Origin: an uncultured Caryophanales bacterium
Lineage (GTDB): Bacteria > Bacillota_I > Bacilli_A > RFN20 > CAG-826
Length of the DNA: 53,496 nt
Reading direction: 5' to 3'
Assembly (NCBI GenBank): GCA_946185585.1
Contig: CAMHJP010000003.1
Location: 1-53,496 of the forward strand
The notes below the pieces were generated by a model, which did no database searches, was not told the DNA's origin, and saw nothing but the letters and a program-made list of their open reading frames with translations. The translations under genes were made by a program, and so were the position numbers. This document shows, in pieces, positions 47,615-53,496 of the stretch (the stretch's first letter is position 1; each line of letters begins with the position of its first letter).

Positions 47615-48031
47615 ATGTCTAACAAAGTAGTTTGTATGTATTGTGACCACGAAGAAGAATACATCATTAAAGAAGAACCACAACACATCTGTATTAATGG
47701 AGTAGACTTCGACACCACATTTAAATACGCCTACTGTAAAAAATGTGGTGGAGATGTCTACCCATCTAACCTAGGTCGATATAATGACCTCCAGATGTTT
47801 GATGGTTATAAAAAACGTGTTGGTCTACTAACTAGTGATCAAATCAAAGATATCAGAAAGAAAAGAGGAATGAGTCAAGTTGAACTCGCTAGGTTCTTAC
47901 GACTTGGCGATAAAACAATTGCCCGCTATGAAACAGGAACCATCCAAGAAAAATCACTTGATCTTTTACTAAGACTAGTCGACAACGACGAATCATACCA
48001 GATTATTAAAAAGCTCAATCAAAAGAAGTAA
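47615..48031 (+). CDS. MqsA/YgiT-type zinc-finger + HTH antitoxin-like regulator (no adjacent toxin seen)
   Basis: CMYCDHEEEYIIKEE...YAYCKKCGGDVY; HTH IKDIRKKRGMSQVELARFLRLGDKTIARYETG. Confidence 0.83.
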   Translation: MSNKVVCMYCDHEEEYIIKEEPQHICINGVDFDTTFKYAYCKKCGGDVYPSNLGRYNDLQMFDGYKKRVGLLTSDQIKDIRKKRGMSQVELARFLRLGDKTIARYETGTIQEKSLDLLLRLVDNDESYQIIKKLNQKK

Positions 48032-48051
48032 ATTCTCTTCTTTCCTTAATC

Positions 48052-48084
48052 GACCCGTTAGACTCTCTCTAATGGGTCTTTTAT
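48052..48084 (+). terminator. Rho-independent terminator
   Basis: GACCCGTTAGA-ctctc-TCTAATGGGTCTTTTATTT. Confidence 0.85.
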
Positions 48085-48132
48085 TTATGTATTAAATCTA
48101 CATACCTAATAATAAAGAACAAACACCCACGA

Positions 48133-48240
48133 ACATATATATAGGGGGAACAAAAGAATTAACAAAGAAATTTTGCTATTAAAAAAATTTTTTTGTCATA
48201 TCTAATACTTTGTATTAAATTGTTCTCCCTATATATGTGT
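48133..48240 (+). promoter_or_regulatory. Promoter region bracketed by a long inverted repeat upstream of structured RNA A
   Basis: ACATATATATAGGGGGAACA (48133-48152) versus TGTTCTCCCTATATATGTGT (48221-48240); TTGTCA(48193-48198)-17-TAAATT between/overlapping. Confidence 0.6.
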
Positions 48241-48640
48241 ACTTGTTTTCTCGTACACGTACATATACAATACGTACAAGTTCAGAGACGAAACGAATCA
48301 ATTGTTCCTGGTCAAAACAAATGATGAGTGAAGTCAATGAACTAAGTTAGAAGAATCAATAGATAAGAATATCGATGCATAATATTCTCTAAAAGAGATT
48401 CTCCTAACAAGTCACTACATTTCTTGTTATTTAGAACAACTTAGATGTGGTGACACAACTACATTTGTTTTTGCTTTATCGTTCAATCTAGTGAACAAGG
48501 TGCAAAAACAAATGAGATCTTTCTCCTTATTCATTGGAGGTGTTATTTAGAATAACCTCAGAATTTCATGAATAAGAAAAAGATCACAGTTGTTCATATA
48601 CCTCACGAGTGTAAATTATCGAAAACGCACTCGGAGGAAT
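48228..48640 (+). ncRNA. Large structured leader RNA or ncRNA (RNA A) upstream of the surface-protein gene
   Basis: At least six phased hairpins, e.g. TTGTT-CCTGGTCAA-AACAA (48302-48320), CATTTGTTTTTGC...GCAAAAACAAATG (48462-48514), and nested stems at 48516-48585; no long ORF. Confidence 0.7.
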
Positions 48641-48663
48641 AAAGAAAGGAGAAAAAAACAAAT

Positions 48664-51600
48664 ATGAACAAATTATTTACAAAGATTGCCTCGCTTGCCT
48701 TAGGCGCAGCGATGGCAGTCGGAGTAGGTGTTGCTGTAAGTGGTAAGAATGTTAGTGCTGCTCATGCCGATACGTCTCCTGCAACATTCACTGTTTCATC
48801 TTATGCCTCTGCGCACAGCTGGACTGGGAGCGGTGGTGGTCCGTATGGGCAAGGCTCTACTAATGCTTTAGATATTGATGCAAACGTTTCGGTATATTGT
48901 ACCGGTTCGTCAAATAGTGGTAAGTATTATACCGATTGGCGTATGTATCAATCTGAAAGTGCAACCGTTGTTGTTTCTGCTAAGTCTGATAGCGTTAAAT
49001 TAACCGCTATTACATTTACATATGGACAAAGTAATGGTGGATGTTTGCACACAAGTAAAGCTCAAAGTGTTACAGCTTATTATTCTACTGGAACAAAAAA
49101 GACCTTAAGTAGCGTTTCTAGTGTTACTGCTTATGTTGCTAATACAGGAACAAAAACAAACGGCCAAGCAAGAATTACTTCGATTGTTGTTGAGTACACT
49201 GTTACAGCCTCAAAAACAGTATCTAGTGTTTCATCAAGTGGACATAAAACCTCATTTGCTAACGGGGAATCATTTGCCTATGGTGGAACATTGACCGCAA
49301 CATATAGTGATTCGACATCATCAAGCGTAACACCTACATCATTTAAGTATGGTGCTTCTGGTATAAATCCAACAAGCGCTGGAACGGCTATCACTGTTGG
49401 GACAGCTCTTAGTTATGCAACTCACAATGATAAATACATATATGTGTTGTATACAGAAAGTGGAACAACAGTTTATACCAGCTACCAAATTTCTGTAAGC
49501 GCACCAAAAACGCCTGCTAGTGTCTCGTCAAGTGGTCATACAACAACATTTACTGCTGGTGACACATTTGCCTATGGTGGTACATTAACTGCTACATATA
49601 CAGACAGTACTAATGCAACAGTTACACCAAGTTCTTTTAAAATTGGCGATGCTGGTATCAATCCAATTTCAGCAGGCACAGTTATTGTTCCTGGCACAAC
49701 TGTTTTGAATAGAAATGATCATCATGGAAAAACAGTCTATGTTCTTTATGAAGAAAATTCGACAACAGTTTATGCTAGTTATACGATTTCCGTTGCTACA
49801 ATAAGCAAAATTTCGTTTGTTGGTGGGACTGACATAGGAACAGCTGGCGGTCAAGGTCAATCTGACACATTAACCAAGAGTGGAATCTCTATGTCTTGTG
49901 ACAGCTGCTATACAAAAAGTGGAGCATACCGTTTTTATAGTGGTTCAACTCTAACTATTTCTTCTACTGTTGGAAACATTGCAAAAATTGAATTCAACAT
50001 GAATGGTTCTTATAATTCAAACTTATTAAGCACATCCACAGGGACATATAACTCTGATGATTCATCTAAAGGCGTATGGACTGGCGATGCAGCTTCTATT
50101 GATTTTGATTTAAGTGCTCAGGCTAGATGTGATTCAGTTGATATTACACTTGCATCTAATGATCCATTGGTGGAACTCGCGCCAGGTTCTTCTAGTGAAG
50201 TTTCAATGTTCAAAGGTGACCAAGATACCTCTGTTAAAGTCCTTGTCAAAAATATTGAAACCAAAACATGGTCATTTACATTTGATGAAGATGCACAAGA
50301 AGGAATTACCACATCTTCATATATCAGTGTATCTGCTGGTGCTGCAGTTAGTGATGTTCACACTTTAACTATCACAACAAAAGCTATTGGCTCAACAACA
50401 ATGCACATTGCTGTTTCTGGAACTGCGTGCGAAACTGCAATTCCAGTTACTGTTAACGCTAAACCAGCATCAATGACAATTAACCATAGCGATATCCATG
50501 AAGGTGAATTAGAAATTATTACTGGTTTATACAAACAAGTATCATTCTCTGGATTAGATACTGACGGTAATCCATATAGCATTGCTGCCGCAGACGTTAC
50601 TCCATCCGCAACAAGTGGTGCTTCTTACGTTACTTTGAGCGGAACTAGAATCACTGGTGCCTCACAAGGTACAGCAGTGGTCAGATACACATTAAAAGCT
50701 TTAACTAGTGTATATGCTGAAGTTACAGTCAATGTTGTTGACGACTACATTGAAACAGTCGGAGAACCAACATTTGCTACTGGTTTAACCGATACACAAG
50801 GACAAAGTCCAGATGTATCAGTCTTTACTTCAAGACCAGGTACAATGCATTCAGGTACTTCAACAACAATTCTATTCGAAAACTATAAGTTCTCTTATGA
50901 ATCAACATATGCTTCTGCAGAATACGGTGATGTATTCAGCTATGACTTCAGTCATGGTACAACAGTGGATTCAACTCATAAGTTACAAACAATTTATGTT
51001 TTCTGTGATATTGATGAAGCTGCTCATGGTAGCTATACAGTTACAGTTGAACAATTCAACGATCCATTAACCGCTATTACATTTACAAATGTGACAGAGA
51101 ATGCTGTTAATGTGGCTCGTGGAAGCACATTCCAACTCGAATGGGCTTATACTCCAGAAAACCCAACTGATGGAAAGGAAGTAGTTTTCAGAATTGATAC
51201 AAACGATGATAACATTTCAATTACCGTTAGCGAGTCGGGTTTAATCAGCATTGGAGCATCATCTAACTTAGGTGAAGCACTTGTCATCATGGAAAGTGCC
51301 CACGATGAAACCATCTATGACTTTGTTATGGTTTCTGCTGTGTTAGAAACAATGAAATACACTGTTCGTGAAGATGAATCGTGGTCATTAGTCAGCGATC
51401 CAACAACCTTAGTTGCTGGCGATGTTGTTGTCATGACAGGTGAGAAAAACAGTGAAATACTTGCTATGGGTACCTATTCCTCGGGAAACAACGTTAAAGC
51501 CGTTGTTAGTAGCCCATTAACCGTTTCAGATGGCGAAATTACTGCTGGTATTACTGATGCGATGATTTATACCCTAGTTTCTGGTACTACAAGTGGCACC

Positions 51601-52320: not shown

Positions 52321-52395
52321 CCTCAATCAAATAGTTGATTTGAGTTCTCTAACCAAATAGGTTATCCGGGTTGTACATCATGTATGACCCGGATT
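52321..52395. terminator. Triple-hairpin convergent terminator region
   Basis: CTCAATCAA-atag-TTGATTTGAG; AACC-aaat-AGGTT; ATCCGGGT...ACCCGGAT followed by TTATTTTTT. Confidence 0.7.
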
Positions 52396-53003
52396 TATTT
52401 TTTCTTTAATTTCCAAATGTATCCATAGGCCGTCTTATATTTCCCATTGATACAATTAGATATTAAAAGAGGTCTTTTCTTTAACTCTTTTGCTGCGCTA
52501 GAAATCGAAGGATATTGTTTAATATATTTCCCATCAAGAGAGTATTGAACAATCCTTTTCTTCTTCGAGAGGCTGATACCTTTCGATTGTTCAATACTCG
52601 CTTGATTCTCATAGACAAAAATATGTCCTCTCGCATGAGGATATTTTTTGTTTAAAACATCCCGAATGGAATGAGGGTCAATATGTAGCTCTAATGAGGC
52701 ACTTCTAATTGATGGAAACCTTCTTAGAACTTGATTTTCTTTATTAACCTCTAAGATCGCTTTACTTGTTCGAGAAATATTAAAATATTTAATTCCTTCA
52801 ATACTCTCTTTTATTTCGTCGACATTTACCCGTCTAAAAAGATAACCATATGCGGTGGAGGCTTCACCTCTTAAACACTTCTCAATTTGTCTTCCTTTTT
52901 TATGTAGTGAGCGTCTAGCATGAGAAGTGTTTAAGTAAACTTGAAAAAGCCTTCCATCAAGATGGTAACAAGCAATGCGTTCGTTCTTTTTTAGACGGGC
53001 CAT
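52395..53003 (-). CDS. Protein of three NUMOD1/IENR1-like DNA-binding repeats, no nuclease domain visible
   Basis: Three repeats ending in AYGYLFRR / ARGHIFVYE / AYGYIWKLKKK, each with the S.R.A/S..A.. helix motif (e.g. VQYSLDGKYIKQYPSISSAAKELKKRPLLISNCINGKYKTAYGYIW). Confidence 0.78.
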   Translation of the reverse strand: MARLKKNERIACYHLDGRLFQVYLNTSHARRSLHKKGRQIEKCLRGEASTAYGYLFRRVNVDEIKESIEGIKYFNISRTSKAILEVNKENQVLRRFPSIRSASLELHIDPHSIRDVLNKKYPHARGHIFVYENQASIEQSKGISLSKKKRIVQYSLDGKYIKQYPSISSAAKELKKRPLLISNCINGKYKTAYGYIWKLKKK

Positions 53004-53109
53004 AGAAGAACTATAAACCCTTGTATAAGCGCACTACTTATGTGTCATATAGGGATTTTTCGCAATGCAAAAAATCTCACTAAAAACACTTGACATGTTC
53101 CCATAACAC

Positions 53110-53496
53110 TAGCTTCATCTACTCCTTCTTGTTTCTTTTTAATTCTTAAAAACTTGTATATAACCTAGTTATATACATTAGCACTCTACACGTGCGAGTG
53201 CTTGCAAGAAGAAGAAGAAGAAGAAGTTATACTCATAGCAAGATTTTTCGAAATCCATCTCATAGAGATTCTCCCTGGTCAAGAGAAACGGAATGAGAAA
53301 ATGGATTTCGATAATCACGTTAAGGAAAATCATTTAGATAGAACAACGGTGCACATTGCTCTTAATAGAGATTCTCCTTAATGGGTCGTTTTTTTGGTTA
53401 TCTAGAACCTAAGAAAGAAAAACGACCAACAACTTTGACACGAATTTGTTTCGTGGGTGGATTTTTAGGAAACCCACATCTAAACAAATTATTTGT
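53110..53496 (+). ncRNA. Second large structured leader RNA (RNA B), truncated by the window end
   Basis: TGTATATAAC-cta-GTTATATACA; AGCACTC...GAGTGCT; CGAAATCCAT...ATGGATTTCG enclosing TTCTC-CCTGGTCAA-GAGAA; GGTCGTTTTT...AAAAACGACC enclosing GGTT-ATCTAG-AACC. Confidence 0.68.
53206..53226 (+). repeat. (AAG)7 microsatellite within RNA B
   Basis: Seven perfect AAG triplets. Confidence 0.95.

Follow-up and report, generated by a model that had tools for sequence, protein, structure and literature searches.

Genes for S-layer proteins, e.g., slpA of Lactobacillus, carry long and stable 5′ UTRs in front of an abundant surface protein, and these leaders have been described as protecting the mRNA from RNases; among them we know of neither a switch built from anti-start and anti-SD nor a conserved RNA family. 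The leader reported here is likewise a long, stable 5′ UTR before a surface-protein gene. It also resembles the translational riboswitches (e.g., SAM-I of Xanthomonas campestris, PMC7270179), in which alternative pairings within a 5′ leader hide or expose the translation start, commonly through anti-SD and anti-anti-SD logic and with no terminator involved. It differs from them, however, in having no known aptamer, in its size (~430 nt, seven hairpins), in that the main element to be sequestered would be the start codon itself, inside the coding sequence, and in its restriction to a single family of surface proteins within a single bacterial family. Large size and many conserved hairpins are shared with ROOL, GOLLD and OLE, which stand alone as noncoding RNAs, the first two often in prophages near tRNA islands (PMC12286853), whereas the present RNA is joined to a gene and has no sequence or model match to them. 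One of its loops, that of hairpin P2, is palindromic and covaries between self-complementary sequences, just like the symmetric kissing loops OLE L9.3 and GOLLD L21a, which covary between palindromes (PMC12286853). Finally, the vlhA genes of Mycoplasma gallisepticum have GAA-repeat promoters (PMC6258824), and trinucleotide (AAG/TTC) repeats likewise stand just upstream of many of the surface-protein genes described below, but only some of the leaders have them, and where present they precede the conserved RNA or lie at its 5′ end.

Here we describe a leader of an uncultured Caryophanales bacterium that is probably (we would say about three chances in four, judging from sequence comparison and modelled folds) a cis-acting translational switch of a new class, dedicated to one surface-protein gene family. 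It belongs among the cis-acting translational leaders; its architecture, size and target are new.

Extent and fold of the leader

The window, i.e., the whole stretch of 53,496 nt that was analysed, is contig 3 of a 689-kb genome estimated as 72% complete. About 630 nt without a gene-size ORF separate the terminator of an HTH gene from the gene start at 48664 (Table 1). The preliminary description had reported this gap and a series of strong stems within it, and was accurate on both: every stem lies where it had been placed, and the only ORFs in the leader are chance ones of at most 43 aa. Positions 48225–48663 (439 nt) fold at −128.1 kcal/mol, compared with −80.0 ± 5.1 kcal/mol for 100 dinucleotide shuffles, none of which came as low (z = −9.4). 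When the whole window was scanned in 300-nt stretches, those of the leader (starting at 48001, 48451, 48151 and 48301) ranked among the lowest z-scores, as did one at 53101, in a second copy. The strand cannot be read from the fold energy alone, because the reverse strand folds equally well, as expected for perfect hairpins; we assigned it from the position beside the SD and ATG, from G-U pairs and from covariation. A large multi-hairpin leader before a surface-protein gene, as originally proposed, is borne out; its 3′ end, however, had been put at 48640, and since the start codon is part of the conserved structure, the RNA reaches into the gene and extends from about 48228 to 48671, 8 nt into the coding region.

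The hairpin at 48052–48079, found in two registers, is the sole terminator-like site, 5′ of the leader. No intrinsic terminator was found inside the leader, which argues against transcription attenuation, and we rejected it. The earlier view that the RNA is too elaborate for a simple attenuator is supported. A leader peptide was likewise rejected, given only the chance ORFs, and leaders of relatives differ by indels of any length. The promoter call is weak, because such matches are no commoner than in shuffled sequence. Around it lies a 26-nt inverted repeat (TATAGGGGG / CTCCCTATA, within 48128–48245), a possible operator pair, and similar motifs occur 5′ of several relatives.

Table 1. Features of the leader, its neighbors and the second copy (positions in the window).
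Feature	Positions	Strand	Details and basis
MqsA-type HTH gene	47615-48031		upstream of leader
Rho-independent terminator of the HTH gene	48052-48078	+	11 pairs, T tail
Inverted repeat, 26 nt	arms 48128-48153 / 48220-48245	.	85% complementary; flanks presumed promoter
Promoter-like TTGTCA-17-TAAATT	48193-48221	+	implied transcription start ~48228
P0, 5′-terminal hairpin	48234-48267	+	fold
P1 hairpin	48279-48343	+	loop CUGGUCAA at 48308-48315; fold
P2 hairpin	48346-48408	+	models R1/R3, covariation, anti-SD tests
P2 SD-like decoy strand (5′ strand)	48346-48355	+	
P2 palindromic loop AUGCAU	48375-48380	+	
P2 anti-SD strand UUCUCCU (3′ strand)	48399-48405	+	
P3 hairpin	48411-48454	+	UUAUUUAGAA tip; fold
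Linker ACAACU	48455-48460	+	complements AGUUGU 48588-48593 (5′ half of anti-start)
P4 hairpin	48462-48514	+	13-bp perfect stem CATTTGTTTTTGC/GCAAAAACAAATG; inverted repeat, fold
P4′ hairpin GATCTTT...AAAGATC	48516-48585	+	fold
Anti-start UUGUUCAUAU	48590-48599	+	perfect complement of 48662-48671; covariation
P5 inner helix CCUC-A(bulge)-CGAGUG / CACUCG-GAGG	48601-48637	+	covariation
Shine-Dalgarno AAAGGAGAA	48645-48653	+	in large 3′ internal loop of P5
Start codon region AUAUGAACAA, 3′ strand of P5	48662-48671	+	covariation
Surface protein, 1210 aa	48664-52296	+	signal peptide-like N-terminus, repeats, C-terminal hydrophobic stretch and RKRKENI
Second leader copy, cut by contig end	53178-53496	+	R1 E 1.5e-9, R3 E 1.5e-8
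Copy 2 CIRCE-like site	53178-53205	+	TTAGCACTC-N9-GAGTGCTTGC
Copy 2 (AAG)7	53206-53226	+	
Copy 2 P1 loop	53275-53282	+	CUGGUCAA
Copy 2 P2	53319-53382	+	loop GUGCAC 53349-53354; anti-SD UUCUCCUU 53372-53379

The seven hairpins (~430 nt) are those of the window, and the RNA is smaller in some relatives. P4′ is missing from several of them, between 67 and 255 nt separate P2 from the start codon, and one leader (L106) has neither P3 nor P4, so that we regard P1, P2 and P5 as the core. In P1 the stems are variable and the loop is conserved, reading (C)UGGUC[AG] in 35 of 44 distinct leaders where 1.5 would be expected. The P1 (UGGUCR) and P2 (RUGCAY) loops presumably bind whatever tips the balance between the states proposed below, and as conserved loops they are candidates for a small-molecule aptamer. 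P5 is formed by UUGUUCAUAU paired with AUAUGAACAA and encloses an inner helix, in which eight of nine pairs show compensatory change and the bulged A is conserved.

Covariation and the anti-start

Among 47 distinct sequences, 97.9% of the P5 cells are paired and 14 of the 19 pairs show compensatory changes; for P2 (43 distinct sequences) the figures are 88% and 15 of 18, these percentages leaning upward because the alignments and models were fitted to the very structures that were counted. The covariation scores (0.436 for P5 against 0.120 when shuffled and at most 0.090 with slid partners; 0.477 for P2 against 0.183 when shuffled) stand far above their slid and shuffled controls, the leaders being mutually related and this relatedness controlled by thinning only.

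The anti-start UUGUUCAU complements the gene's own AUGAACAA and covaries with the synonymous codons of the start region. At the third P5 pair (column 14:120) we counted G-C in 38, A-U in eight and C-G in one of the 47 sequences, with no mismatched intermediate; the A-U cases belong to genes starting AUGAAUAA, a synonymous change, and by our reading of the loci arose in at least three separate groups. In leader L117 the gene starts AUGAAUUU and the leader has AAAUUCAU. An exact 8-nt complement of the own gene start is present in 36 of 42 leaders; such a complement of its own start precedes only one of the 39 genes in the window, namely that at 48664, and none of six paralogues with an identical start and other leaders. 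A start codon that is itself the covarying partner, with the leader tracking synonymous change, makes for unusually clean comparative evidence for start-codon sequestration.

These observations bear on one alternative, a constitutive structured 5′ UTR whose hairpins only shield an abundant surface-protein mRNA from RNases, with no switching. The type of gene and the long stable hairpins would fit, as would the 5′-terminal P0 of the window and the CIRCE-like hairpin of many relatives; stability, however, needs no exact complement of the start codon that follows synonymous change, and it would leave the strand covarying with the SD, as well as the conserved loop sequences, without a use. We regard this explanation as unlikely.

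Alternative pairings and the proposed switch

The 3′ strand of P2, UUCUCCUU, is the complement of a Shine-Dalgarno sequence, and can pair either with the SD-like decoy, closing hairpin P2, or with the SD of the gene (CUCUCC with GGAGAG, AUCCUU with AAGGAU, UUUCCUC with GAGGAAA). Any anti-SD strand necessarily looks like the 3′ end of the 16S RNA, so that part of this complementarity is automatic and only the excess within a locus is informative. Such an excess is found: in 33 leaders sharing less than 75% identity, pairing with the own SD averages −11.06 kcal/mol against −10.17 ± 0.21 kcal/mol with the SDs of others, a difference reached in none of 20,000 permutations, and in 18 leaders below 65% identity the values are −10.54 against −9.72 ± 0.28 kcal/mol (P = 0.0016). 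Two control regions put through the same comparison of own and others' SDs gave no effect.

A third pairing involves the linker. Of 42 leaders, 20 have ACAAC somewhere between P2 and P5 (4 expected), and its complement GUUGU makes up the 5′ half of the anti-start. When the leaders were folded minus the gene start, at least four of the seven linker:anti-start positions were paired in 36 of 42, and scrambling the anti-start cost 1.75 kcal/mol on average (P = 5.5e-6). About half of the leaders pair strongly here, whereas in L106, and in those with UUAUUCAU, which gain little energy from it, the pairing is weak or missing; the linker arm is the weakest of the three.

On this basis we propose the following model. 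In the OFF state, anti-start and start region would form helix P5, with the start codon buried in it, or the SD would be held by the 3′ strand of P2, or both. In the ON state, closure of P2 would tie up the anti-SD on its decoy strand, and the ACAAC linker, which lies below P4, would capture the anti-start by its 5′ half, so that both SD and AUG are accessible. The energies computed at 37°C, with pseudoknots outside the model, are −126.4 kcal/mol with P5 formed, −123.0 with SD:anti-SD and −123.1 with SD and AUG open; the three states lie within 3.4 kcal/mol and the leader is hence predicted to be poised, differences of 3 kcal/mol falling within model error. Conservation, covarying helices, mutually exclusive complementarities and near-equal predicted state energies all come directly out of the computation. 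We infer a single transcript of leader and gene, interconversion of the states, and regulation at the level of translation. The signal could be a small molecule, a protein, a second RNA or temperature. As in riboswitches, a conserved 5′ leader structure stands upstream of one gene class, and, as far as complementarity and covariation indicate, its mutually exclusive pairings would occlude or free the SD and AUG.

The P2 loop reads AUGCAU in 25 and GUGCAC in 18 of 43 distinct sequences and is never mixed. Such a palindrome might allow two leader RNAs to kiss and dimerise, so that each mRNA would sense the dose of the other and their translation would be coordinated or made mutually exclusive. 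Two such leaders are present in many of these genomes, so dimerisation would couple surface-protein mRNAs, and since the window has AUGCAU in copy 1 and GUGCAC in copy 2, self-recognition by allele is conceivable; if true, this would be an RNA-only quorum of mRNAs. We consider the idea speculative and rather improbable, and a simple A-U or G-C pair closing the loop explains the data equally well.

Distribution and Rfam status

A DNA search of 24 genomes of the genus recovered the whole leader, 92–97% identical, in four other species and pieces of it in others, in each case before a gene with the common N-terminus. Covariance models were built of hairpin P2 (R1) and of the 3′ element including the start codon (R2), and a third (R3) was rebuilt from 46 matches. 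R1 matched in 31 of the 225 genomes of the family; R3, the homologue search that had been recommended at the outset, found the same RNA in 34 of them, in 8 of 35 genera; and R2, run on the R1 loci, matched 3′ of nearly every R1 match. Outside the family there were no matches in 281 genomes of the order (R1), 397 of the class and 396 of the phylum, these wider searches having used strict filters by which distant members may be missed.

The Rfam comparison that had likewise been advised assigned no known class: at gathering thresholds the window gave no match, and 20 related loci gave only one neighboring tRNA, while relaxed filters returned sub-threshold, implausible matches, mostly to eukaryotic miRNA and snoRNA families. 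The initial idea of a new riboregulator is plausible. The other initial idea, a member of the ROOL/GOLLD class, is not supported; the RNA is, moreover, tied to the start codon of its gene and is not free-standing near tRNA islands. A free-standing ornate RNA of this sort, upstream of the gene by chance, would account for the size, the many hairpins and a palindromic loop reminiscent of those that kiss in OLE and GOLLD (PMC12286853), but the ROOL and GOLLD models have no gathering match in the window or the 20 relatives (ROOL none even at E ≤ 10 within 48030–48720), no terminator stands ahead of the gene, and the 3′ helix includes the downstream start codon in all full-length members; we find it barely credible. 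No tRNA was found within the window. A phage or plasmid origin was considered and dropped, blastn giving no match in phage or plasmid records.

The RNA was described nowhere in the literature that we searched, which covered S-layer leaders, structured-RNA screens and this lineage; a human-microbiome screen reports only RNAs of 27–219 bp (PMC8040213). The RNA family is uncatalogued in the sense that it matches no Rfam family and that we found no published description.

The gene and its relatives

The 1210-aa protein has no Pfam match above the cut-off; related proteins match Big_2 or, weakly, Big_3 (Ig-like). The genes downstream of the leaders encode signal peptides starting MNKLFTKI...GVGVAV, in one case MNLFKKI, and in all 43 distinct leaders with a visible start the next gene starts MN(K)LF... 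followed by the hydrophobic GVGVAV stretch, a count from genomes searched without exhausting weaker matches. Complete relatives combine a signal-peptide-like start with a terminal hydrophobic stretch plus RKRK, and on account of these starts and ends and the Big_2/Big_3 matches we take them to be surface proteins by architecture.

A second class of MNKLFTKVAA paralogues (L065, L067, L048, L061 and L055) has a different leader, in which CTTCTCCTTT complements AAAGGAGAAG, hairpin loops carry UGCA and the anti-start is absent. This leader may be a divergent form of the same switch.

The second copy and its repeats

The contig ends at 53496, inside the second leader, and a search of the rest of the assembly did not recover the missing 3′ half. 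Because conserved copies of the leader may cause such assemblies to break, the copy numbers should be read as lower bounds. Between the two leaders lies a NUMOD1/I-HmuI-like (homing-endonuclease-related) gene (52395–53003, − strand); a similar-looking gene stands directly 5′ of a leader in relative G004 (L043, 9200–9805), and a gene resembling a transposase (L043, 5629–7062, − strand) separates the two surface genes that have leaders in that genome.

Copy 2 has a near-match to the CIRCE operator TTAGCACTC-N9-GAGTGCTAA, absent at copy 1, and such a CIRCE-like site precedes 14 of 44 leaders, copy 2 included. These heat-shock-type operators, along with the pairing of the SD/AUG region and the ~3 kcal/mol between closed and open states, are what an RNA thermometer would offer in its favor, P5 melting to free the start codon. 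We nevertheless think it quite improbable: conserved loops and 430 nt of ornament exceed the needs of a melting hairpin, P5 is not graded with mismatches, copy 1 is without the operator, and no HrcA was found in the organism's own 72%-complete genome.

Tracts of (AAG)n or (TTC)n with four or more units, in either orientation, occur in about 18 of 44 leaders. A DNA-level element, with inverted and simple repeats serving promoter switching or recombination among surface-protein genes as at vlhA of M. gallisepticum with its GAA repeats (PMC6258824), could explain these tracts, the paired gene copies, the assembly break inside copy 2 and the 26-nt inverted repeat around the promoter. The compensatory changes, G-U pairs and SD/start-codon coupling, however, are signatures of RNA, and the repeats are missing from copy 1 and from many relatives, which makes this reading very improbable.

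Implications

A translational switch of the kind proposed would explain, in a way open to direct test, how these cells choose the surface protein that they make. It would give a bacterial family that is mostly known through metagenomes an uncatalogued family of large regulatory RNAs, whose three pairings covary and exclude one another, and it would be a candidate sensor of a ligand or protein.
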